Below, piece after piece: positions 11,983 to 22,678 of a stretch of DNA of 64,000 bases. This DNA comes from Microbacterium marinum (lineage in GTDB: Bacteria > Actinomycetota > Actinomycetes > Actinomycetales > Microbacteriaceae), in NCBI RefSeq assembly GCF_014204835.1, contig NZ_JACHMD010000001.1:186001-250000 (forward strand), in the 5' to 3' direction. The stretch's first letter is position 1. Every line of letters begins with the position of its first letter. The notes under the pieces are model-generated. The model saw only the letters and a list, made by a program, of their open reading frames with translations. It was not told where the DNA came from and did not search any database. A program made the position numbers and the translations under genes.

Positions 11983-12022
11983 GCGGCATCCACTCCTCTC
12001 ACGACACACGCAAGGACGCGAT

Positions 12023-13171
12023 ATGAGCCACCGTGACGACATGACCCTGACCTCCTCCGGCTTCTGGGTGAGCCAGGAGGCGCCGATCCGGTCGGCGAAC
12101 CCCATCCCGACCCCCACCGCGCCGGCCCCGGACGTGCTGCGCTGCGCGTACATGGAGCTCGTGGTCACCGACCTCGCGGCGTCCCGTGTCTTCTACGTCG
12201 ACGTGCTCGGCCTCCACGTCACCGAGGAGGACGACGAGGCGATCTACCTCCGGTCGACCGAGGAGTTCATCCACCACAACCTCGTCCTGCGCCGGGGCCC
12301 CGTCGCCGCAGTCGCCGTGTTCTCCTACCGGGTGCGCTCGGCCGACGACCTCGACAAGGCGGTCGCGTTCTACGAGGAGCTCGGCTGCGACGTCCGTCGC
12401 GCACCGGAGGGGTTCACGAAGGGCATCGGCGACTCCGTCCGGGTCATCGATCCCCTCGGCTTCCCGTACGAGTTCTTCTTCGCGACCGAGCACGTCGAGC
12501 GGTTGTCGTGGCGGTACGACCTCTACAGCCCGGGCGAGCTCGTCCGACTCGACCACTTCAACCAGGTGACCCCCGACGTGCCGCGCGCTGTCAACTTCAT
12601 GCAGTCGCTGGGCTTCCGGGTGACCGAGGACATCCAGGACGAAGAGGGCACGGTCTACGCCGCGTGGATGCGCCGCAAGCCCACCGTGCACGACACCGCG
12701 ATGACCGGGGGCGACGGCCCGCGGATGCACCACGTCTGCTTCGCGACGCACGAGAAGCACAACATCCTCGCCATCTGCGACAAGCTCGGCGCCCTGCGCC
12801 GCTCCGACGCGATCGAGCGGGGCCCCGGTCGCCACGGCGTCTCGAACGCCTTCTACCTGTACCTGCGCGACCCCGACGGGCACCGCGTCGAGGTGTACAC
12901 GCAGGACTACTACACCGGCGACCCCGACAACCCCGTGGTCACCTGGGACGTGCACGACAACCAGCGTCGCGACTGGTGGGGCAACCCCGTCGTGCCGAGC
13001 TGGTACACCGAGGCCTCGCTGGTCCTTGACCTCGACGGCAACCCGCAGCCCGTCGTCGCCCGAACGGATTCGTCCGAGATGGCCGTCACGATCGGCGCCG
13101 ACGGGTTCTCGTACACCCGCGCCCCCGAGTCGGCGGGCGACGGCGAGTTCAAGCTCGGCAACCAGCTCTGA
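12023..13171 (+). CDS. hpaD: Homoprotocatechuate 2,3-dioxygenase (extradiol, type I)
   Basis: Ring-cleaving dioxygenase that opens 3,4-dihydroxyphenylacetate next to the diol with O2. The 382-residue sequence has two vicinal-oxygen-chelate modules. Metal ligands are H178 (RLDHFN), one of H236/H237 (RMHHVCF) and E290 (HRVEVY), the 2-His-1-carboxylate set. The sequence closely resembles the Brevibacterium-type enzyme (about 365 residues), including its long C-terminal extension. ATG 12023 follows AAGGA; ATG 12041 is a weaker alternative. The gene identifies the pathway of the whole cluster. Confidence 0.93.
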   Translation: MSHRDDMTLTSSGFWVSQEAPIRSANPIPTPTAPAPDVLRCAYMELVVTDLAASRVFYVDVLGLHVTEEDDEAIYLRSTEEFIHHNLVLRRGPVAAVAVFSYRVRSADDLDKAVAFYEELGCDVRRAPEGFTKGIGDSVRVIDPLGFPYEFFFATEHVERLSWRYDLYSPGELVRLDHFNQVTPDVPRAVNFMQSLGFRVTEDIQDEEGTVYAAWMRRKPTVHDTAMTGGDGPRMHHVCFATHEKHNILAICDKLGALRRSDAIERGPGRHGVSNAFYLYLRDPDGHRVEVYTQDYYTGDPDNPVVTWDVHDNQRRDWWGNPVVPSWYTEASLVLDLDGNPQPVVARTDSSEMAVTIGADGFSYTRAPESAGDGEFKLGNQL

Positions 13172-13185
13172 GACGAGGAGATCGG

Positions 13186-13971
13186 ATGCTGCCACCCGAC
13201 GTCATCGCCCGGATCGCCGACGAGCTGGCCGAGGCCGACCGCACCCACGGCGTGATCCCCCGCATCACGGCGCGGTACCCCGACGCGACGATCGAGGACT
13301 CGTACGCCATCCAGGGCGTCTGGCGCGACAAGAACCTCGCCGCCGGCAGGCGCCTCGTCGGGCGGAAGATCGGCCTCACCTCGAAGGCGATGCAGCAGGC
13401 CACCGGGATCACCGAACCCGACTACGGCGTCATGTTCGACGACACCGTCCACCGGTCCGGTGCGGAGATCGAGACCTCCCGGTTCTCGAACGTGCGCATC
13501 GAGGTGGAGCTCGCCTTCGTGCTGCGCGAACCGCTCGAAGGACCGGACTGCACGCTCGACGACGCGCTGGCCGCGATCGACTACGCGATCCCGGCGCTCG
13601 AGGTGCTCAACTCGCACATCGAGCTCGAGGGTCGCACGATCGTCGACACGATCTCCGACAACGCCGCCTACGGCGCGATGGTGCTCGGTGAGGTGCGCAA
13701 GCGTCCCGACGAGATCGACCTGCGCTGGGTGCCGGGCGTCCTCTCCCGCAACGGCGAGATCGAAGAGACCGGTGTCGCCGCCGGCGTGCTCGGGCACCCC
13801 GCGACCGGAGTAGCGTGGCTCGCCAACAAGTTCGCGCAGCACGGCGCACGACTCGAGGCCGGCGAGATCATCCTCGCCGGGTCGTTCACCCGCCCCATGT
13901 GGGTGGCCGCCGGAGACGAGGTCGTCTGCGACTACGGACCGATGGGAACAGTGACATGCCGCTTCACCTGA
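13186..13971 (+). CDS. hpaH: 2-oxo-hept-4-ene-1,7-dioate hydratase (HpaH-type)
   Basis: A 261-residue member of the 2-oxopent-4-dienoate hydratase family (MhpD/HpaH), which adds water to the double bond of the decarboxylated ring-cleavage product using Mg2+. Recognisable are [12 protein letters not shown] (about 58-69), the acidic metal site around VEVELAFVL and the conserved [13 protein letters not shown] near the C-terminus. Usual family length is about 262-267. It sits 14 bp after hpaD and overlaps the aldolase gene by 16 bp, so the last two steps of the pathway are coupled. The specific name relies on context; MhpD has the same fold. Confidence 0.88.
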
Positions 13972-14762
13972 ACGACACGCTGCGCGAGGCGATCGCGGCA
14001 TCCGATCGTCCGCTGGCGGGTATCTGGGTGTGCTCCGGCTCGCCGCTGGTCGCGGAGATCTGCGCCGGTTCCGGCCTGGACTGGACGCTCATCGACATGG
14101 AGCACTCCCCCAACGGTCTGGAGTCGGTGCTCGCGCAGCTGCAGGCCGTCGCGGCCTACCCGATCACCCCGGTGGTGCGGGTGCCGATCAACGATCCCGT
14201 GATCATCAAGCAGGTCCTCGACCTCGGCGCGCAGAACCTGCTGGTGCCGATGGTGTCGACGGCCGCGGAAGCGGAAGCAGCCGTCGCCGCCGTGCGGTAC
14301 CCGCCGCGAGGCCAGCGCGGCGTCGGCTCCGCCCTCGGCCGCTCCGCCCGCTGGAACCGGGTGACGGACTACCTGACCGACGCCGATCGGCACGTCTCGC
14401 TGTTCGTGCAGATCGAGACGTCCGCGGGGGTCGAGGCTGCCGCCGACATCGCCGCCGTGGACGGGGTGGACGGGGTGTTCGTCGGCCCGAGCGACCTGGC
14501 CGCCTCGATGGGGCTGCTCGGCCAGCAGACGCATCCCGACGTCGTCGCCGCCGTGCACCGCGCATTCGATGCCGTCATCACTGCGAGCAAGCCGGTCGGC
14601 GTGAACGCCTTCGATCCGGATGCCGCGCAGGCGTACCTCGAGGCGGGCGCCTCGTTCGTGCTCGTCGGCGCGGATGTGGCGCTCCTGGCTCGCGGGTCCG
14701 AAGCGCTCGCGGCACGCTGGTCGCCGGCCGGCGGATCCGATGGCCCGGCGAAGAGCTACTGA
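13956..14762 (+). CDS. hpaI: 4-hydroxy-2-oxoheptanedioate aldolase (HpaI/HpcH-type)
   Basis: Class II aldolase that splits 4-hydroxy-2-oxoheptanedioate into pyruvate and succinic semialdehyde. The 268-residue protein has catalytic H50 (IDMEHSPN), R75 (VVRVPIND) and metal ligands E154 (QIETSAG) and D180 (GPSDLA), matching the HpcH/HpaI family in spacing and length. An upstream in-frame extension to 13815 lies inside hpaH and is not used; ATG at 13956 starts directly at the conserved N-terminus. It ends the catabolic operon. The products enter central metabolism directly (pyruvate) or after oxidation (succinic semialdehyde). Confidence 0.9.
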   Translation: MPLHLNDTLREAIAASDRPLAGIWVCSGSPLVAEICAGSGLDWTLIDMEHSPNGLESVLAQLQAVAAYPITPVVRVPINDPVIIKQVLDLGAQNLLVPMVSTAAEAEAAVAAVRYPPRGQRGVGSALGRSARWNRVTDYLTDADRHVSLFVQIETSAGVEAAADIAAVDGVDGVFVGPSDLAASMGLLGQQTHPDVVAAVHRAFDAVITASKPVGVNAFDPDAAQAYLEAGASFVLVGADVALLARGSEALAARWSPAGGSDGPAKSY

Positions 14763-14782
14763 CCCTGGGGCGCGCGGCCCGC

Positions 14783-14794
14783 TTCGTATATGAT
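14783..14794 (+). promoter_or_regulatory. Promoter -10 box within a second FCD-GntR-like operator
   Basis: TTCGTATATGAT contains a near-perfect -10 box, TATGAT (14789-14794). It matches the reverse complement of the 8206-8217 element in 10 of 12 positions. It lies in the 167-bp gap before the ThDP enzyme gene, giving that gene its own, probably co-regulated, promoter with a leader of about 130 nt. Confidence 0.45.
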
Positions 14795-14929
14795 CTGAGC
14801 GTCCGGTACGAACGACCCTGCCGGTGCTCGAAAAAGGGGCACGCAGCCGTGCACACCACGCGCGAGACACATACGGCCTCAGCATCCGTACGTCGTCCTC
14901 GCGATCCGTGAGGGCCGAAAGGCTCCGTC

Positions 14930-16621
14930 ATGCCCACCGTCTCCGCGCACGTCGCGCACGCCCTCGCCCAGCACATCGATCACGTCTTCGGGGTGATGGG
15001 CAACGGCAACGCCTACGTCCTCGACGCCCTCGAGCGCGAGACGTCCGCGACCTACACCGCCGTCCGCCACGAGGCGGGTGGCGTCGTCGCCGCCGACGCC
15101 TACCACCGCGCGTCCGGCCGGATCGCCGCCGCCACCGCGACCTACGGAGCCGGGTTCACGAACACGCTCACCTCCCTCGCCGAGGCAGCCCAGGCGCACG
15201 TGCCGCTCGTCGTGATCGTCGGCGACGCTCCGACCGCCGGCCCCCGCGCGTGGGACGTCGATCAGATCGCGCTCGCCTCGGCGGTCGGGGTCCGCACATA
15301 CACGGTCGGACGGACCGATGCCGCCGCGACCACCGTCATCGCGATCGAGCACGCCCTCACCTATCGCGTGCCGACCGTCCTCGCCGTGCCGTACGACGTC
15401 GCCACCCTCGACGCCGGCCCGGTGCTCCCGGCCCCCGAGCCGCGCCTCCCCGCCGCGCTGGCTCCGAGCAGCCCGTTCGCCCAGGGCACGATCCGCGAGA
15501 TCGCCGCGGCGCTCGCGGGAGCCGAGCGTCCGCTCCTCCTCGCCGGGCGAGGGGCGTGGATCTCGGGTGCGGGCGAGGCCCTGGGCGCGCTGGCCGACCT
15601 GACCGGGTCGATCACCGCGACATCGGCGCTCGGCCGCGGGGTCTTCCCGAACGCCGCGTTCGATCTCGGCGTCACCGGCGGATTCGGGGCGGAGGGGGCG
15701 ATGGACCTCATCCGCGACGCCGACGTCGCCGTCGTGTTCGGCGCGTCCCTCAACCAGTTCACGATGCGCTTCGGCGAGCTGTTCGCGCCGACGACCCGCG
15801 TCTTCCAGGTCGACCTCGCCCCCACCGCGACGCATCCGCACGTCGGCGGGTATGTGCGCGGCGATGCGACGCTCGTCGCCGACGCCATCGTGGCCGCGCT
15901 GCGTTCCGCCGGGTCCGCCCCGACCGGCTGGCGGGAGTCCGTCGATCTCACGCCGCTGCGCGCGTACGACCCGGGTGACGGGATCGCCCCCGACGGACGC
16001 CTCGACCCACGCTCGGTCGCTGCCCGCATCGGCGAGCTCCTCCCGGCTGACCGCATCGTCGTGTCGGACGGCGGTCACTTCATCGGCTGGGCGAACATGT
16101 ACTGGCCCGTCGCCTCGCCCGACCGGATGATGATGATCGGCACTGCCTTCCAGTCGATCGGCCAGGGGTGGCCGTCGGTCGTGGGCGCGTCGATGGCCGA
16201 CACGGATGCCACGGTCGTCCTGACCACCGGTGACGGCGGCGGCTTGATGGCGCTGGCCGACCTCGAGTCGGCGGTCCGGGTTGCCGGGGGGCGGGGGCTC
16301 GCCGTCGTGTGGAACGACGCCGCGTACGGTGCCGAGGTGAACCTGTACGGGCTCAAGGGGCTCGCGCGCGAACCGATGATGATCCCCCAGGTCGACTTCG
16401 CCGCCCTCGCGAGCGGTGTCGGCGCCGAGGGTGTCGCCGTCGAGCGGATCGCCGACCTCGAACGTCTCGGCACGTGGGCGGCGACACCCGCCGCTGAACG
16501 GCCGTTCCTCGTGCTCGACTGCCGCATCTCGGGCGATGTGATCGCGCCGTATCAGGAGGAGATCATGCGGGTGAACGGCGTGACCCGACCGGTCGCCGCG
16601 GCGCCCGGCAGCCTCGACTGA
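14930..16621 (+). CDS. Thiamine diphosphate-dependent decarboxylase/synthase-like enzyme
   Basis: A 563-residue enzyme of the acetolactate synthase / benzoylformate decarboxylase superfamily. It has the N-terminal pyrimidine-binding domain with activating E48 (RHEAGG), a central domain, and the C-terminal pyrophosphate domain with GDGG (about 434) followed by WNDAAYG. Large members of this family include decarboxylases of 2-oxo acids, carboligases and oxalyl-CoA enzymes. Its gene follows the homoprotocatechuate operon but has its own promoter. A role such as decarboxylating an aryl 2-oxo acid to feed the pathway is possible but is only inferred from position. Confidence 0.75.
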   Translation: MPTVSAHVAHALAQHIDHVFGVMGNGNAYVLDALERETSATYTAVRHEAGGVVAADAYHRASGRIAAATATYGAGFTNTLTSLAEAAQAHVPLVVIVGDAPTAGPRAWDVDQIALASAVGVRTYTVGRTDAAATTVIAIEHALTYRVPTVLAVPYDVATLDAGPVLPAPEPRLPAALAPSSPFAQGTIREIAAALAGAERPLLLAGRGAWISGAGEALGALADLTGSITATSALGRGVFPNAAFDLGVTGGFGAEGAMDLIRDADVAVVFGASLNQFTMRFGELFAPTTRVFQVDLAPTATHPHVGGYVRGDATLVADAIVAALRSAGSAPTGWRESVDLTPLRAYDPGDGIAPDGRLDPRSVAARIGELLPADRIVVSDGGHFIGWANMYWPVASPDRMMMIGTAFQSIGQGWPSVVGASMADTDATVVLTTGDGGGLMALADLESAVRVAGGRGLAVVWNDAAYGAEVNLYGLKGLAREPMMIPQVDFAALASGVGAEGVAVERIADLERLGTWAATPAAERPFLVLDCRISGDVIAPYQEEIMRVNGVTRPVAAAPGSLD

Positions 16622-16685: not shown

Positions 16686-16976
16686 TCAGCGGTCTTCGGC
16701 CGCCGCGGTGTGGTGGCGGATGACTTCCGCGACGACGAAGTTGAACCACTTCTCCGCGAACTCGGGGTCGAGGTCGGCTTCCTCGGCGAGCCGGCGCAGC
16801 CGTGCGGTCTGCTGCTCCTCACGCGAGGGGTCGGATGCCGGCATCCCGTGCTCCGCCTTCAGCACGCCGACCTGCTTGGTGCAGCGGAAGCGCTCGGCGA
16901 GCATGAAGACGAGCGCCGCATCGATGTTGTCGATGCTGGAACGCAGGCTGTGCAGCTGGGCGATCGGGTCGGTCAT
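16686..16976 (-). CDS. Chorismate mutase (AroQ class)
   Basis: A 96-residue all-helical protein with the AroQ pattern: an N-terminal helix starting LRSSIDNIDAALVFMLAERF (about residues 10-29; the conserved Arg and Asp lie in SSIDNID), KxxxGxxKA (QVGVLKAEHG) and a C-terminal helix with EKWFNFVVAEVIRHH. AroQ enzymes convert chorismate to prephenate for Phe/Tyr synthesis. An upstream in-frame extension of 59 residues is Arg-rich and starts inside the zinc-ribbon gene, so ATG 16976 is used. Last gene of the minus-strand run; a 65-bp gap precedes it and it may have its own promoter. Confidence 0.8.
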   Translation of the reverse strand: MTDPIAQLHSLRSSIDNIDAALVFMLAERFRCTKQVGVLKAEHGMPASDPSREEQQTARLRRLAEEADLDPEFAEKWFNFVVAEVIRHHTAAAEDR

Positions 16977-17041
16977 GATTCCTCCGCGCCCGACCCTATC
17001 GCGCGTGGGATGGCCCTGCCGCCGCGCCCCCCCGCCGCGGG

Positions 17042-17182
17042 TCAGGTCGGCTCGGTCGTGCGGACGAGGCCGCAGGTCAGGCAGGACCACACGACGAGGA
17101 ACCGCTCGTCGTCGAGGATCTCGAACCGCAGCGGGTCGCCGCAGGTGGGGCACGCGCGCGGGTCGACGGTCGGGCGACTCAT
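17042..17182 (-). CDS. Small zinc-ribbon protein
   Basis: A 46-residue protein with two CxxC knuckles (CPTCGDPL at residues 10-17 and CLTCGL at about 36-41), a minimal zinc ribbon. It starts 1 bp after the stop of the helix-hairpin-helix gene, so it is probably co-translated. An in-frame start 23 codons upstream exists but lies inside that gene. The function is unknown. Such ribbons bind nucleic acid or serve as small metal-holding adaptors. Confidence 0.65.
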   Translation of the reverse strand: MSRPTVDPRACPTCGDPLRFEILDDERFLVVWSCLTCGLVRTTEPT

Positions 17183-17183
17183 C

Positions 17184-17960
17184 TCAGAGGTCGACCCGGC
17201 GCCCGAAGCGGCGCTCACCGCGTGGCCGAGGCGAGCAGGTCGCCGCGGCACGGAGCCGGACGATCTCGTGCGGCTGCAGCCCGGCGGCCTCGCCGAAGTC
17301 CTCGAGCGACGAGAAGCCGTTCTGCTTCGTGCGCTCCTTCACCACGCGGCGAGCGCGGGTGCGGTTCATGCCGGGCAGGTCCTGCAGCTCTTCAGCCGTC
17401 GCCGTCTGCACGTCGACCGGTTCGGCGGGAGCCTCCGACGCCAGCAGGTCGGACGACCCCGCCCCCAGATCAGCCGCGATCCTGGTCGCCTCGGATTCGG
17501 CGGCCTTCTCGTCGCGCTCTCGGGCTCCCCGCGACGCCGACCGCTTCGAACGCGAGGAACGCGACGAGCGCGAGGACCCCGCAGGCCGCGGCGCGCGAGC
17601 CCCCGACTGCTCGGCGCCCGCGGCATCCGACCCTCGCAGACTCTGACCCCGGCTACGACGCTCCCACATCGTGCGCAGCCAGCCCGGATTCAGGGCGAGT
17701 GCGACCACGATCCCCGCGAGGTGCGCGACCGAGTTCACGAGATCGTCGAGCGGACCCCAGACCTCGATCCCGAGGGTGATCGACACGATGACGATCAGGA
17801 TGCCGGTGACGAGGGCGGCCACCCGACGCGAGATGAGACCGATCGCGAGGAAGCCGATCCACGCGAAGCCCGGGCCGAACAGGGTCAGCACGAGCCACGC
17901 GCTCATCCCCAGCAGCCACCCGAAGCCGGGGACCTGCGTCTGCCGCGAGGCGATCGTCAT
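17184..17960 (-). CDS. Membrane protein with C-terminal helix-hairpin-helix domain (ComEA-like)
   Basis: A 258-residue protein. Residues about 10-95 hold three or four membrane segments. An Arg/Ser-rich disordered linker covers about 95-170, and a helix-hairpin-helix fold (VDVQTATAEELQDLPGMNRT, about 180-199, then FSSLEDFGEAAGL) lies near the C-terminus. HhH pairs of this type bind DNA non-specifically (as in ComEA) or mediate protein contacts. It overlaps the DUF1257-like gene by ATGA. Role unknown; a membrane-tethered DNA or protein binder is the structural reading. The far upstream start (18554) overlaps two genes and is rejected. Confidence 0.65.
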   Translation of the reverse strand: MTIASRQTQVPGFGWLLGMSAWLVLTLFGPGFAWIGFLAIGLISRRVAALVTGILIVIVSITLGIEVWGPLDDLVNSVAHLAGIVVALALNPGWLRTMWERRSRGQSLRGSDAAGAEQSGARAPRPAGSSRSSRSSRSKRSASRGARERDEKAAESEATRIAADLGAGSSDLLASEAPAEPVDVQTATAEELQDLPGMNRTRARRVVKERTKQNGFSSLEDFGEAAGLQPHEIVRLRAAATCSPRPRGERRFGRRVDL

Positions 17961-18460
17961 GCCCAGTCCTTCACGTTCAGGACCATCGTCACGGTGTCCT
18001 CGTCGTCGCGCGTCTCGGAGACGAGCTCGAACCCGGCCGCATCCGCCCGCGAGCGGATCCGCTCCGCGACGGCCCGCTGGACGTGCGCGGCGTACGCGGC
18101 ATCCAGTCGCCCGATGAAGGTCGTCGCCTCCTCTTCCGACACGTCGTGCCCGTCGACGCGCTCGAGGTGCGCCGCCCACACGCCGTCCTCGGTGCGTGTC
18201 ATCTCGACCTCGAACCCGTCGACGACCGCGACCAGCGAGCCGTCCCGAGAGTCGACCGAGATCGCCCCGAGATCGCGCAATGCGGCGGCGAGCAGGTCGG
18301 GGTCCTTCATGCGCGTCTGCACCGCGACGGCGACCGGCTCTCCCCCACCGCCCTCGGGCTTCGTCCCCGCGAACTCGCGCGCGGCCCCGGCCACCCCGGT
18401 CGCACCCAGAGCGGCAGCGGCGGCGAGCGCCGCCGGAATCAGGATCAGCGAGATGCTCAT
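17957..18460 (-). CDS. DUF1257 (Ycf35-like) protein
   Basis: A 167-residue protein with a hydrophobic, Ala-rich N-terminus (about residues 1-28, a membrane or signal segment) followed by a DUF1257-like domain. The pattern includes TRMKDPDLLAAALRDLGA (about 49-66) and, in the last third, AYAAHVQRAVAERIRSRA then AGFELVSETRDDEDTVTMVL. DUF1257 proteins include plastid and cyanobacterial Ycf35, whose biochemical role is not established, and they recur next to AAA+ ATPases of the Ycf46 type, as here. ATGA overlap with the downstream gene and 4-bp overlap with the radical SAM gene show tight coupling. Assignment is by remembered family pattern. Confidence 0.6.
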   Translation of the reverse strand: MSISLILIPAALAAAAALGATGVAGAAREFAGTKPEGGGGEPVAVAVQTRMKDPDLLAAALRDLGAISVDSRDGSLVAVVDGFEVEMTRTEDGVWAAHLERVDGHDVSEEEATTFIGRLDAAYAAHVQRAVAERIRSRADAAGFELVSETRDDEDTVTMVLNVKDWA

Positions 18461-19209
18461 GAGGGGTTCTCCTTCTCGAGGGTGGCGACGGCGACCGTCG
18501 ACGGTCGGTCGGCGCGGATGCCGAGATCGTCGAGGAGCGCGGCCAGCGCGGCATCCGTGGCCCATCCGTTCACCGCGACGGTGCCGTCGCGCGAGATGCG
18601 CACTTCGAGCGAGTCGGCGCCGCCGGCCGACGCGATCGCTTGGACCCGGTCGGCGTAGACGGGGGTCAGGGCACGGATGGACTGGTTGCGCGAGCCGATC
18701 CACGGCCGGGTCGTGTCGGGCAGGTCGCGCAGGTACGGACCGTCGCAGAGCAGGTCGGTCGCCGCCAGCAGACGCGCGATGTCGGGTCGGGTGGCCGCCC
18801 AGACGCGCAGGCGCTCGAGGGTGTACCCGCTGAAGGTCATCACCGTCAGGCCCGCATCGCGGAACGCCTCGGCAACGACGGCCAGCGCGCCGGCCTGGTC
18901 GAACGGCTCCCCGCCGAGCAGGGTGATCCCGCGGGCTCCCGCGGCGGTCGCGGCTGCCACCCACCGGTCCGCGAGTTGACCCGGGGCCTCGGAGTGCGCA
19001 CCGCGGACGGCCCACAGCTGCGGGTTGAAGCATCCGGGGCAGCGCACGGCGCACCCCTGCACCCAGACGGCCGCGCGCCGTCCCGGTCCCTCTGCCTCCG
19101 TCGCGGGTACGAACCGCGACCATCGCAACGCTCCGTCGCCCGGCGGCGGCGGAGCGGTGCCGAGGAGGCTCTGCTCGCCGCCGCGGCCGACAGCCTCGGC
19201 GACGGTCAC
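18457..19209 (-). CDS. Radical SAM protein, NrdG-like 4Fe-4S type
   Basis: A 250-residue protein with the radical SAM cluster motif CxxxCxxC at C53-C57-C60 (WVQGCAVRCPGCFNP) and GGEP at 99-102, the SAM amino-group contact. Size and layout resemble activating-enzyme family members such as NrdG and PflA, but no anaerobic ribonucleotide reductase or pyruvate formate-lyase gene is nearby. Instead it lies between DUF2997 and DUF1257 genes, next to a Ycf46-like ATPase, an arrangement suggesting a dedicated maturation or repair role. GTG start overlaps the upstream stop (GTGA). Confidence 0.8.
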   Translation of the reverse strand: MTVAEAVGRGGEQSLLGTAPPPPGDGALRWSRFVPATEAEGPGRRAAVWVQGCAVRCPGCFNPQLWAVRGAHSEAPGQLADRWVAAATAAGARGITLLGGEPFDQAGALAVVAEAFRDAGLTVMTFSGYTLERLRVWAATRPDIARLLAATDLLCDGPYLRDLPDTTRPWIGSRNQSIRALTPVYADRVQAIASAGGADSLEVRISRDGTVAVNGWATDAALAALLDDLGIRADRPSTVAVATLEKENPS

Positions 19210-19409
19210 AGATCCTCCTCGACGTACGTGTCGGATGCCGCGGTGGTCTCGACCCGGCGGTAGTCATCGGTGAACGTCGACGATGTCGTCTCGGCGTCGA
19301 GGAGCGCCTCGAGCTGCTGGATGTAGTCGAGGCACTCGGGGCCGGTCATGCCGAAGGTCTCGGCGGCGACCGATCCGTCGGCGCGGAGCTGAACGACGAG
19401 CTTCTTCAT
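19206..19409 (-). CDS. DUF2997 family small protein
   Basis: A 67-residue protein beginning MKKLVVQLRADGSV with a short beta pair, then ETFGMTGPECLDYIQQLEALL and a disordered acidic tail. The strand - DGS - strand - G.xGxxCL - helix pattern is that of DUF2997, a family without known function. The single Cys in GPECLDY is part of the family pattern. Two consecutive ATG codons exist; the second (19409) is better spaced from GAGGT. It starts 8 bp after the AAA+ gene and overlaps the radical SAM gene by 4 bp. Confidence 0.65.
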   Translation of the reverse strand: MKKLVVQLRADGSVAAETFGMTGPECLDYIQQLEALLDAETTSSTFTDDYRRVETTAASDTYVEEDL

Positions 19410-19417
19410 CATCGACC

Positions 19418-21031
19418 TCAATAGTCCACGGTCCGGCCGCCCCGGCGGGGCGACAGCGAGCCTTCGTGTTCGGCGCCGGCGAGTTCGCTGGTGTCGAAGT
19501 CTTCCGCGCCGGTCGCCCGGACGGCGCGCTGCGTCGCCCAGTCGCGGATGCGCTGCACCTCTTCGGCCTGGGTGACGGCGAGGGGGATCGTCGAGGCGAC
19601 CACACCGGCGAGGGTGTCGAGGCCGACCGTCCCCTTCGCGCTGAATCCCTCGTACAGGGCGGAGACGACCGCCTGCTCGATCTCGGCGCCGGAGTGGTTC
19701 TCGCTGGCGGCGATGAGGGCGTCCACCGCCGATCGATCGGATGCCACGGCGCCGAGGCCATTGGCATCCGTCGCCCGTGCCTGCAGCTGGAGCTCCCAGA
19801 TGGCTTCGCGTTCGACGGCGGTGGGCAGGTCGACGAAGAAGATCTCGTCGAAACGCCCCTTGCGCATGAACTCCGGCGGCAGGACGTCGATGTTGTTGGC
19901 CGTGGCGACAACGAAGACGGGGTGCTTCTTCTCCTGCATCCAGGTGAGGAAGGTGCCGAAGACGCGCGCGGTGGTGCCCGAATCCCCCTGCCCGGTGGTG
20001 TTCGAGAAGCCCTTCTCGATCTCGTCGACCCAGAGGATGCACGGGGCGACGGCCTCGGCGGTGGCGATCGCGGTGCGCAGGTTCTGCTCGCTGGATCCGA
20101 CGAGCCCGGAGAAGATCCGGCCGATGTCGAGGCGGAGCAGCGGGAGGCCCCACGACGCCGCCGTCGCCTTGGCGGTCATCGACTTGCCGCACCCGGGGAC
20201 GCCGGTGATGAGCACACCCTTCGGCGCCGGGAGGCCGTACTCCTGCGCCCCGCGGAGCCACGACCCCTTCCGGCGGTCGAGCCAGCGCTTGAGGTTGTTC
20301 AGCCCGCCCACGTCGTCGAGATCGAGCTCCGCCTTCACGAACTCGAGCACGCCCGACTTGCGCACCACCTGACGCTTCTCGTCGAGGACGACGTCGATGT
20401 CGGCGCCCGAGAGCGTGCCGTCGTTGACCATCGCACGCGCGAAGGCGTTCTCGGCCTCGGCCATCGTGAGGCCGAGCGCGGCGTGCACCAGCTGTTCGCG
20501 CGCGGCGTCGTCGGCCGAGACCTTGATGTCGCGCGCGTTGTTGTCGATCATCGTGTCGAGCAGCTCGCGGATCTCCTCCGCGCTCGGCAGGGGGAAGTCG
20601 AACAGGTGCGTCAGCTCGTCGAGCTCGGGCGGGATGACCCGCACCGGTGCGGTGACGACGAGGGTCCGTGAGACGTCGCCGTGACGGAACTCGAGGGCCG
20701 TCTCGCGGACGGTGCGGACGATCGCCGGATCGCCGGAGCGGTGCTCGGTGCCGAAATAGGCGTGCAGGTCGCAGAAGATGAAGACGCTCGGCTCGGTCAC
20801 CCCGGCGGCGTGCTGGAGCGCGCGCGACGGGTTCGCCGTGTTGGAGACCGTCTTGCCGTCGGGTCCGATGAGGCCCAGCGCCGACGTCCACGACCACACC
20901 GCCCGGCGGTTGCGCTGCGCCTCGGCGGCATCCGTGATGGCGGCGACGGCGCGCACCTCCTCACCGGTCTCGATGTAGAGCAGCGGCAGGCGCGCTTTGA
21001 AGGCCTCGTCCAGCGTCTTCGCGAAGGTCAC
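19418..21031 (-). CDS. AAA+ ATPase, Ycf46-like
   Basis: A 537-residue ATPase. Residues 1-250 form the N-terminal region, with a degenerate P-loop-like fold also seen in Ycf46 proteins. Residues about 255-500 are a classic AAA+ module: Walker A GVPGCGKS (277-284), Walker B ILWVDEIE (332-339), sensor 1 ATANN (377-381) and arginine-finger region FMRKGRFDEIF. The sequence is of the FtsH/Cdc48 clade used for remodelling proteins. No protease domain follows. GTG 21031 has AGGAGA upstream; an extension to 21115 is Arg/Pro-rich and rejected. With DUF2997, radical SAM and DUF1257 proteins directly downstream, it probably acts on the same target. Confidence 0.82.
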   Translation of the reverse strand: MTFAKTLDEAFKARLPLLYIETGEEVRAVAAITDAAEAQRNRRAVWSWTSALGLIGPDGKTVSNTANPSRALQHAAGVTEPSVFIFCDLHAYFGTEHRSGDPAIVRTVRETALEFRHGDVSRTLVVTAPVRVIPPELDELTHLFDFPLPSAEEIRELLDTMIDNNARDIKVSADDAAREQLVHAALGLTMAEAENAFARAMVNDGTLSGADIDVVLDEKRQVVRKSGVLEFVKAELDLDDVGGLNNLKRWLDRRKGSWLRGAQEYGLPAPKGVLITGVPGCGKSMTAKATAASWGLPLLRLDIGRIFSGLVGSSEQNLRTAIATAEAVAPCILWVDEIEKGFSNTTGQGDSGTTARVFGTFLTWMQEKKHPVFVVATANNIDVLPPEFMRKGRFDEIFFVDLPTAVEREAIWELQLQARATDANGLGAVASDRSAVDALIAASENHSGAEIEQAVVSALYEGFSAKGTVGLDTLAGVVASTIPLAVTQAEEVQRIRDWATQRAVRATGAEDFDTSELAGAEHEGSLSPRRGGRTVDY

Positions 21032-21065
21032 GTCTTCTCCTGTGTGTCGGTCTGCGGGGCGTCGT

Positions 21066-21821
21066 TCAGGGCGTGGATGCCGGTTGGTCGAGGGTGATGG
21101 TCCACGATCCCGCACCGTCGTCGACGTCCACGCGGAGCACGACGGTGTCGGATGTCACCCACGAGGCGCGCTGGTCGACGTCGTCGACGCCCTCGACGAG
21201 TTCGGTGACGGCGCCGGGCACGATAGCGTCGACGGTGAAGAACCCGTCGCCGGTGAACGTGAAGCGGCCGCTCAGCGCCTCGCCGTCGTAGACGAGCAGG
21301 GCGGGGCCTTCTCCCGAGACCGTGGGACCGCCGAAGGGCGTGGGCTCCTCGAGGGTCACGGTCGCCTTCCAGTCGGTCAGGCGCGGCGCGAACCAGAGCC
21401 GACCGCCGGTCCGTCCCGGAAAGATCACCTGATCGCGTCCGTCGCTGATGAGCCCGATGTACTCAGGACGCTCGACCGTGACGCTCACCCCGGCGTCGAG
21501 CTGCTGGTACACGTTCGTGTAGTTCTCGCCGCCTTCGGTGACGGGGCCGATCACCCAGAGAGCGTCGCCGGCGGGCAGGTCGATCCACCCGCCGTCCGCC
21601 GTCCCGACGATCTCGTCGTCCACGATCTCGAGCTCGCCGATGTCGGGGTTCTCCCATGGACGCAGCTCGTACCGGTTCGGATCGGTGAAGATCAGGCCGC
21701 CGGTGTCGGGGTTGACCCCGAGGAAGGGCATCGTCAGCAAGGCGACCACGATCGCGGCGACGCTCCCGGTCAGCCAGGTGATCGCGGAGAACCGTCGGAT
21801 GCGCGCATCGGCGAGGCTCAC
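21066..21821 (-). CDS. Membrane-anchored beta-rich protein of unknown function (paralogue 1)
   Basis: A 251-residue protein with one N-terminal membrane segment (about residues 12-33) and a long extracytoplasmic part rich in beta-type, Gly/Asp/Val sequence. The passage LRPWENPDIGELEIVDDEIV followed by GGWIDLPAG matches the organisation of the neighbouring gene product (LSPW then GAMISL), so the two look like diverged copies. I recognise no named domain. GTGA overlap with the upstream paralogue and a 34-bp gap to the AAA+ gene place it in the same transcript. Confidence 0.7.
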   Translation of the reverse strand: MSLADARIRRFSAITWLTGSVAAIVVALLTMPFLGVNPDTGGLIFTDPNRYELRPWENPDIGELEIVDDEIVGTADGGWIDLPAGDALWVIGPVTEGGENYTNVYQQLDAGVSVTVERPEYIGLISDGRDQVIFPGRTGGRLWFAPRLTDWKATVTLEEPTPFGGPTVSGEGPALLVYDGEALSGRFTFTGDGFFTVDAIVPGAVTELVEGVDDVDQRASWVTSDTVVLRVDVDDGAGSWTITLDQPASTP

Positions 21822-22678
21822 GGGGTCGCCTCCGGCGCGGGCGCGTCGTCAGTCGGGCTCGGGACGGGCGAAGCGTCGCCCGTCGGACTGGGGCCGGGCG
21901 AGGCGGCATCCGTCGGGAAACCGATGCGCCAGCCGGCGTCACCCCAGGACTGCACGTCGAAGAGCACGCGGGGCGAGTCCTGCCAGGCGATGGACTGGTC
22001 GAGGGGGGACACCGCCGAGAGAACCCGTTGGGTGCCGTGCACGGTCGCGACCGAGATCATGACGTCGCCGTCGCCGCGGGCACTCAACCGCGCCGTGCTC
22101 TCCCCGCCGTCGTAGAGGAACGCGTCGGATTCGAAGCCCGAGACGACATCGGTCACGGCGTCGAGGCCACCGAAACTCACGCGGCCCCGCCACGTGCCGT
22201 CGTTGGGTCCGTTGATCCACAGCTCGACGTCGGGCTGCTCGACCAGGATGGCCACCCGCCCGTCGCCGAGGGAGTGGAAGTCGGGCGGCTCGTGGCCGTC
22301 TCCCGCCGTCACGATGCGGCCACCAGTGCCCGTGACCCACACTCCGCCGAAGTACGATTCCGGCTCCGGTGTCAGGATGATCGGCTCGCCGACGTCGACG
22401 CCGGTCAGCGAGATCATCGCGCCGTCGCGTCCTTCATACAGGCCCCCGCCGAGATCCTCGGCCGGGATCGGCGTGTCACTCGTCCACGGTGACAGTCGGT
22501 AGTCGTCATCCACGCCCTCGCCGAGACCGGCCACGTCGAAGCCGCCTTCATCGGCGAAGAACCACGCGATGAGGGCGACCAGGAGCAGGCCCGACACCCA
22601 GACGACGGCACTGAACCCGGCAAGACGTCCGTCCGCGGTCGGGCGCGCGCCCGCCCCACTCGACGTCCCCGAACTCAT
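21818..22678 (-). CDS. Membrane-anchored beta-rich protein of unknown function (paralogue 2)
   Basis: A 286-residue protein with one N-terminal membrane segment (about residues 22-42), an extracytoplasmic beta-rich region with LSPWTSDTPIPAEDLGGGLY (about 62-81), then a Pro/Ser/Asp-rich C-terminal tail (about the last 35 residues) that repeats PSPTGDASPVPSPTDD, probably unstructured or wall-spanning. It is the first gene of the run that continues through the AAA+ module, and a paralogue of the next gene. No family name can be given. It could be a surface sensor or partner for the module, but nothing in the sequence proves that. Confidence 0.7.
   Translation of the reverse strand: MSSGTSSGAGARPTADGRLAGFSAVVWVSGLLLVALIAWFFADEGGFDVAGLGEGVDDDYRLSPWTSDTPIPAEDLGGGLYEGRDGAMISLTGVDVGEPIILTPEPESYFGGVWVTGTGGRIVTAGDGHEPPDFHSLGDGRVAILVEQPDVELWINGPNDGTWRGRVSFGGLDAVTDVVSGFESDAFLYDGGESTARLSARGDGDVMISVATVHGTQRVLSAVSPLDQSIAWQDSPRVLFDVQSWGDAGWRIGFPTDAASPGPSPTGDASPVPSPTDDAPAPEATP

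Follow-up and report, generated by a model that had tools for sequence, protein, structure and literature searches.

The module described here lies in a stretch of 64,000 nucleotides of Microbacterium marinum (assembly GCF_014204835.1, contig NZ_JACHMD010000001.1, positions 186,001 to 250,000), called the window in the following. It is built around an AAA+ ATPase of Ycf46-like type (AAA). Five genes, coding for this ATPase, a DUF2997 protein, a radical SAM protein (rSAM), a DUF1257-like protein and a transmembrane (TM) protein with a helix-hairpin-helix (HhH) domain, form one conserved operon in Microbacteriaceae, in two Clostridia and in kin of the Gastranaerophilales. Furthermore, the AAA and HhH proteins share the same kind of C-terminal tail, which is rare elsewhere. 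In the window they end with RGGRTVDY and GRRVDL, respectively. This common tail was not noticed in the original prediction, which was made from the sequence of the window. To our knowledge, no function is settled for Ycf46, Ycf35/DUF1257 or DUF2997.

A conserved operon in Microbacteriaceae

All genes named in the original prediction were recovered at their predicted positions and spacing, on the minus strand (Table 1). They follow head to tail in the order memA-memB-AAA-DUF2997-rSAM-DUF1257-like-HhH-TM. Four of the six junctions are overlaps of 4 bp (memA/memB, DUF2997/rSAM, rSAM/DUF1257-like and DUF1257-like/HhH-TM). The gap between memB and AAA measures 34 bp and that between AAA and DUF2997 8 bp; with an alternative ATG at 19412 the DUF2997 protein would have 68 amino acids (aa).

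Relatives of the ATPase were searched with an E limit of 1e-40 in 100 genomes of the family and 149 genomes of the genus, own genome included. They were found in four and 16 genomes, respectively (3/99 and 15/148 without the own genome). At all 18 other Microbacteriaceae loci the order AAA-DUF2997-rSAM-DUF1257-like-HhH was kept, so the gene neighbourhood is not due to chance. The HhH membrane protein, formerly described as a mere follower, was present at each of these 18 loci and is a core partner.

The ATPase matched PF00004 (4.5e-31) and, across residues 6-510, phrog_8638 (1.2e-135). Its AAA domain, its family-specific N-terminal part and its alignment and tree position with cyanobacterial AAA proteins place it in the Ycf46-like AAA+ group. 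No model called Ycf46 was among its library matches; the name Ycf46-like rests on kinship. The rSAM protein matched PF13353 (4Fe-4S single-cluster type, 2.1e-29) and stayed below the gathering cut-off of PF04055 (26.1 vs 29.5 bits). In agreement with the predicted CxxxCxxC enzyme, CX3CX2C and GGEP were kept in 34/34 aligned rSAM proteins. Among solved structures, pyruvate formate-lyase activating enzyme was its sole match at E<=0.01. The HhH-TM protein matched PF12836 (HhH_3, 1.5e-12); its HhH domain follows N-terminal TM segments and probably lies on the cytoplasmic side.

Pfam matches had been expected for both the DUF2997 and the DUF1257 protein. This applied to the former (PF11211, 43.8 bits, gathering cut-off 24.1), but not to the latter, for which no PF06868 match was obtained up to E 1 and Pfam gives no DUF1257 membership. 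The conserved cysteine ascribed to DUF2997 proved to be its single one. This cysteine and the glycine three residues before it were invariant in 83/83 loci (76 distinct sequences), which suits a role as carrier or substrate. Several database relatives of the 167-aa DUF1257-like protein carry the name DUF1257. In profile-profile comparison it reached 99.0% against the set of Clostridia/Gastranaerophilales type. Against two canonical DUF1257 sets the values were 90.7% and 94.7%, which supports a distant relative of canonical DUF1257, no more. With Pfam, PF06868 was passed by proteins of a cyanobacterium, a phage, a Pirellula and an Akkermansiaceae genome and missed by the corresponding proteins of three loci described below (L072, L075 and L216). 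In the predicted model of the DUF1257-like protein residues 41-167 were mostly well predicted, with a beta-alpha-beta4-alpha-beta2 fold and no clear relative in the PDB.

The proteins of memA and memB could be aligned over their full length with 22% identity, as suited the claim that they are paralogues. Two separate mem genes lay upstream at 15 of the 18 other loci, with weaker matches. At L025 and L026 the memA and memB queries matched one same place, and at L057 memB matched alone. A protein search with memB revealed 15 relatives, own included, and all six with a species name belonged to Microbacterium. Thus, the surface pair appears lineage-bound, as had been supposed. The AlphaFold2 (AF2) model of memB (mean predicted local distance difference test score, pLDDT, 86) contains a TM helix and beta domains, and its structure matches were generic jelly-rolls.

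Two neighbours were ruled out as members of the module. The zinc ribbon gene, formerly included, was matched at 1/18 other Microbacteriaceae loci (L043), and chorismate mutase was found in 29/29 sampled genus genomes, module present or not. For these reasons neither is part of the module. In module-free genus genomes lactonase and chorismate mutase were found in 12 of the 15 stretches examined, nine of these being compact. The block therefore appears to be present or absent as one unit. Genes for a vicinal oxygen chelate (VOC)-type dioxygenase, a hydratase, an HpcH-like aldolase and a thiamine pyrophosphate (TPP)-dependent enzyme, read by eye, adjoin it at window positions 11996-16621 and are perhaps an aromatic degradation cluster.

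Table 1 Genes and C-terminal tails of the block in the window
Feature	Position	Strand	Basis or remark
memA, one TM helix and beta-rich protein, probably extracytoplasmic, 286 aa; memB paralogue; Microbacteriaceae accessory	21818..22678	-	
memB, one TM helix and beta domains, 251 aa	21066..21821	-	AF2 model, C-terminal half jelly-roll-like
Ycf46-like AAA+ ATPase, 537 aa, GTG start	19418..21031	-	Pfam, PHROG, alignment, tree
C-terminal tail of AAA protein, RGGRTVDY-COOH	19421..19444	-	
DUF2997 protein, 67 aa, invariant G-x-x-C cysteine	19206..19409	-	PF11211
Radical SAM protein of NrdG-like type, 250 aa, CX3CX2C and GGEP	18457..19209	-	PF13353, motifs
DUF1257-like protein, N-terminal hydrophobic segment, 167 aa	17957..18460	-	Profile-profile comparison
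Membrane protein with C-terminal HhH domain, 258 aa	17184..17960	-	PF12836
C-terminal tail of HhH protein, GRRVDL-COOH	17187..17204	-	

The shared C-terminal tail

The tail was counted with the C-terminal pattern [RK].[ILVFM][DE][FYWLIV], which was set after looking at the data and misses some forms. At 56 related module loci, which are not independent of each other, it was present in 51/53 AAA proteins (misses L236 and L067) and in 56/62 HhH proteins. The HhH misses were L223 (ERTVD), L229 (ERIVD), L243 (GERILDLDE), L075 (VKRMVDMQ) and two genes whose HhH label is weak (L067 and L072). At the same loci the pattern was found in 0/53 rSAM, 0/37 DUF1257 and 1/30 DUF2997 proteins, the totals of the last two being low as overlapping frames were dropped. 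The other loci gave 11/117 for AAA, 0/4 for HhH, 0/10 for rSAM, 0/45 for DUF1257, 0/31 for DUF2997 and 2/1150 for unlabelled genes. The corresponding tail codon pattern matched twice in the own genome (3.12 Mb), exactly at the stops of the AAA and HhH genes.

Among the unlabelled genes of the module loci 12/618 carried the tail. Eight of these code for TPR-HhH or Mrr-type operon proteins (two each in L231, L233, L234 and L251) and three are apparently incidental (L223, L246 and L233). The remaining one follows the untailed AAA gene of L236; its protein has 266 aa, no Pfam match and the end VRKLDI. In L231, L233 and L234 tailed proteins combine N-terminal hydrophobic stretches with Mrr_cat (Pfam 4.8e-21 for L231 and 2e-23 for L233, by eye for L234; D...QCK kept, by eye) and end with YGKKLDI, YGRKLDI or YGRRLDI. 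The TPR proteins with HhH-like end have the tails GRK[IL]D[WFI], GRTIDF or GRRLDV.

Proteasomal ATPases carry the C-terminal docking tail HbYX (hydrophobic-Tyr-any). The module tail is likewise a short C-terminal tail of an AAA protein. It differs from HbYX in being hydrophobic-Asp-aromatic and common to membrane partners; the window proteins end with V-D-Y (AAA) and V-D-L (HhH).

Occurrence in other phyla

A scan with the AAA alignment identified loci from many phyla (best 80 of 88). An AAA relative was found in 22/146 genomes (E<=1e-60) of the class to which a Gastranaerophilales metagenome-assembled genome (MAG, L067) belongs. In the order of a rumen genome (L072) an rSAM relative was found in 29/117 genomes (E<=1e-40), and in the class of Clostridium peptidivorans AAA in 6/245, two of which have the full operon (L075 and L214). 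The centre genome is included in each number. The sets around L067 and L072 overlap in genomes, and their loci are probably those of Gastranaerophilales kin. HhH, rSAM, AAA, DUF1257 and DUF2997 stood together at many loci of the Gastranaerophilales class and at the two Clostridia loci, with partly different gene order.

In total 146 AAA genes were collected by similarity, not as a random sample, and the core genes around them were detected with home-made profiles. All four core genes (AAA, rSAM, DUF1257 and DUF2997) lay within 5 kb at 53/146, and a labelled HhH gene was also found at 47 of these 53. For L225, counted here, the rSAM is doubtful, being a 295-aa gene on the opposite strand. Thus, the co-occurrence of the four genes outside the genus, which the original prediction had called for, was observed in other Microbacteriaceae, Clostridia, Gastranaerophilales kin, a planctomycete, a Bacteroidales and an archaeon.

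In a FastTree phylogeny of the 146 AAA proteins, the 52 with an RGGR-type tail fell into one clade of 53 (support 1.0), L067 being counted although a stop after RGGRT cuts its tail. Since Microbacteriaceae, Clostridia and the Gastranaerophilales class are united in this clade, it points to transfer between phyla. Both rSAM and HhH were located within 5 kb at 48 of the 52. For L220 and L225 the two genes are on a different contig of the respective genome (L221 and L226), L235 has neither in its stretch, and L251 has rSAM together with tagged TPR-type proteins.

The core genes also occur with other partners. A planctomycete locus (L074, Thermoguttaceae MAG) and L253-L255 have all four without HhH and without the RGGR tail. 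In a Bacteroidales (L278) and a Methanococcoides, an archaeon (L277), AAA is found with a superfamily 1 (SF1) helicase, two more genes, DUF2997, DUF1257 and rSAM; the rSAM lies more than 5 kb from AAA, which puts both loci outside the 53. MkoA is the helicase of the Mokosh system, and the SF1 helicases of L278 and L277 matched the PADLOC model MkoA with 1.1e-80 and 9.2e-81, respectively. The AAA C-termini of L277 and L278 contain LRQE and then NPFI. Two Clostridia loci (L215 and L216) combine AAA with a fused DUF1257-DUF2997 protein, a MiaB-like rSAM and paralogues, several of which have R-x-I-[RK]-F near the N-terminus. For L216 the fused protein matched PF11211 (9.8e-7) and not PF06868, its DUF1257 half being recognized by the home-made profile only, and the MiaB-like rSAM matched Radical_SAM (1e-18) and UPF0004 (2.1e-7). 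The neighbourhood of the more distant Clostridia AAA genes of L217 and L218 resembles PRTRC/ThiF, by eye.

Fourteen AAA loci, including seven from phages or viral contigs, have DUF1257 and DUF2997 but neither rSAM nor RGGR tail. AAA with DUF1257 alone was found at ten, namely eight cyanobacterial ones and the two with the fused protein. Of 54 phage records with AAA seven were opened, and DUF1257 and DUF2997 were detected near AAA in five, but not in the other two (Catdawg and Javan368). For viral contigs the number was 2/9. The five phage loci (L014, L015, L016, L018 and L019, from Pseudomonas, Rhizobium, Rhodobacter, Aeromonas and Agrobacterium phages) hold AAA, an X protein, DUF1257 and DUF2997 together. 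The X protein has about 200-240 aa and in 4/5 a basic-hydrophobic C-terminus such as RNRKLKL; a family of about 120 aa is next in order at L014, L015 and L018.

In 20 genomes, split by us according to gene context and branch, DUF2997 was present in 12/13 with the present branch of AAA proteins (missing in G398) and in 0/7 with other Ycf46-like AAA. In the phylum Pfam detected it in 2/149 sampled genomes, own included.

Possible function and related systems

Our tentative reading, held with somewhat less than even confidence, is that the module is a horizontally spread membrane AAA+ machine, on which tail-bearing partners of DNA type are docked, with DUF1257 and DUF2997 as adaptors and the rSAM as modifier. 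In general terms, it was already supposed in the original prediction that the ATPase may remodel a target and the rSAM modify it. The tail would be the docking signal. A single pocket would accept a tail of the ATPase itself or, instead, one of a membrane partner; it is placed most likely on DUF1257 or DUF2997, because these partners are present in nearly every version. Tail binding would bring the AAA ring to the membrane proteins. The rSAM would modify or charge a partner, and the likeliest sites would be the tail Gly-Gly and the region around the DUF2997 cysteine. ATP hydrolysis would then serve to assemble or remodel the HhH protein on the inner side of the membrane. The likeliest job would be to handle or attack DNA close to the membrane, since the tail is carried by HhH and TPR-HhH partners and by an Mrr-type nuclease bound to the membrane. 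Our confidence is highest for docking by the tail and decreases for its reading by DUF1257/DUF2997, for modification of DUF2997 or the tail by the rSAM and, finally, for DNA handling or immunity.

Several points weigh against this machine, beside the relatedness of the counted loci and the forms missed by the pattern. L236 is an untailed member, the sole one, of the RGGR clade. The backward control of the codon pattern also gave two matches in the own genome; the position is informative, the number hardly. A wider tail scan missed known tails, with three matches in the controls vs six. The related cyanobacterial tail EYQR[ML]EF was found on AAA only, so client docking may not be general. Its codon pattern matched once each in 2/3 cyanobacterial genomes, at the AAA stops; in the third no match was found, and its AAA ends with EYKRMEF. 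Furthermore, rSAM accompanies AAA, DUF1257 and DUF2997 without the RGGR tail in L074, L253-L255, L277 and L278, and therefore the tail need not be the rSAM substrate. Mrr-type nucleases were found in 3/56 module loci among the tail-bearing proteins examined. Finally, the block of Microbacterium is flanked by ordinary genes, and PADLOC contained no specific model for any of the seven proteins.

Among the closest known systems is the cyanobacterial and plastid set Ycf46-Ycf35-DUF2997. It shares with the module DUF1257, DUF2997, an AAA protein of the same family, a neighbouring Fe-S protein and a conserved AAA tail, there R-[ML]-E-F. In that set the Fe-S protein is a ferredoxin; the present module instead has a radical SAM enzyme, together with an HhH membrane protein that bears the tail. 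In cyanobacteria no partner with a tail was found, and the AAA and DUF2997 genes are separated from each other in the three genomes examined. The ferredoxin belongs to the duf2997-ycf35-fed7 cluster (cluster g) of PMC4284462. DUF2997-DUF1257-ferredoxin clusters were seen by eye in cyanobacterial L138 and L139, and the L140 stretch was without ferredoxin. The ferredoxin next to DUF1257 in L138 and L139 has the N-terminal repeat RSGLEPELGG.

In FtsH ternary conflict systems an AAA+ protein is likewise near a radical SAM enzyme thought to modify a partner. The AAA family is another one there and the vWA part was not seen at the window module; Ycf46 is not named in that paper (PMC7159879). NrdG, the activator of anaerobic ribonucleotide reductase, has the same rSAM domain type and CX3CX2C. 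In contrast, the window rSAM did not reach the cut-off of the NrdG model NCBIfam TIGR02491 (82.7 vs 126.1 bits), and no glycyl radical enzyme is among the operon proteins. Mokosh shares the MkoA-matching helicase beside the quartet of L278 and L277; the window has none. Among open-access PMC papers two mention DUF2997 and three DUF1257, two of these being common to both, and none was found that joins three or more of DUF1257, DUF2997, ycf46, radical SAM and AAA+. In the libraries and papers searched, no named system corresponds to the module in its entirety, and for this reason we regard it as a new kind of system with parts from known families. With more caution, it may be filed under the cyanobacterial set, likewise unexplained, as a variant of it.

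The first alternative, which we consider rather improbable, is a general AAA+ chaperone that assembles or repairs a membrane complex under redox or Fe-S control, with HhH for protein contacts and not for DNA. The known cyanobacterial and plastid relatives, the ferredoxin of the fed7 cluster (PMC4284462) and the ordinary genes around the Microbacterium block agree with a chaperone. Patchy presence in genus and family and the cross-phylum clade fit an accessory, transferred system instead, and the tagged Mrr-type nuclease also speaks for another role. An anti-phage defence system proper is unlikely. HhH, TPR and Mrr proteins would be its exchangeable effectors, and the phage copies decoys or counter-measures. 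Such a system would account for the Mrr_cat partner, the operons with MkoA-matching helicase and the DUF1257 and DUF2997 genes of phages and viral contigs. SF1 helicases of this type, however, also do other jobs, Mrr is rare, no systematic search for defence genes around the loci was made, and no PADLOC system covers the window proteins. The PADLOC matches were AAA-domain ones (IetA, TRIP13 and mad8), a weak pVip (0.01) and a weak 4TM effector (0.068), and the AAA protein reached 73.3 bits with the curated NCBIfam model of Iet (cut-off 510).

A more specific version appears improbable to us. DUF1257/DUF2997 would read the tail common to the ATPase and to exchangeable DNA effectors of the membrane (HhH, TPR-HhH and Mrr-type nuclease), the NrdG-like rSAM would license it, and the ring ATPase would build a membrane DNA-immunity complex, to which the cut-down phage copies (AAA, X protein, DUF1257 and DUF2997) would be counter-measures. 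In this version the rSAM would act either on the cysteine of DUF2997 or on the tail Gly-Gly, the latter perhaps by forming a glycyl radical or modifying the backbone. A competence-like accessory of DNA uptake, suggested by the resemblance of HhH-TM to ComEA domains (NCBIfam comE, 1.2e-6, 28.6 of 152.35 bits and thus under cut-off), is very improbable, since HhH after N-terminal TM segments and a tail common with a cytosolic ATPase suit a cytoplasmic HhH domain and no further com-like gene was recognized in the operon.

With other partners, the quartet of AAA, rSAM, DUF1257 and DUF2997 spans bacteria to an archaeon. A compact operon in which a radical SAM enzyme is combined with a defined membrane partner and with a tail common to this partner and the ATPase provides a testable handle on the function of Ycf46, Ycf35 and DUF2997 relatives. 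If it is true that the tail is a docking code of the ATPase and exchangeable effectors, effectors would be coupled to an AAA+ machine in a new manner.

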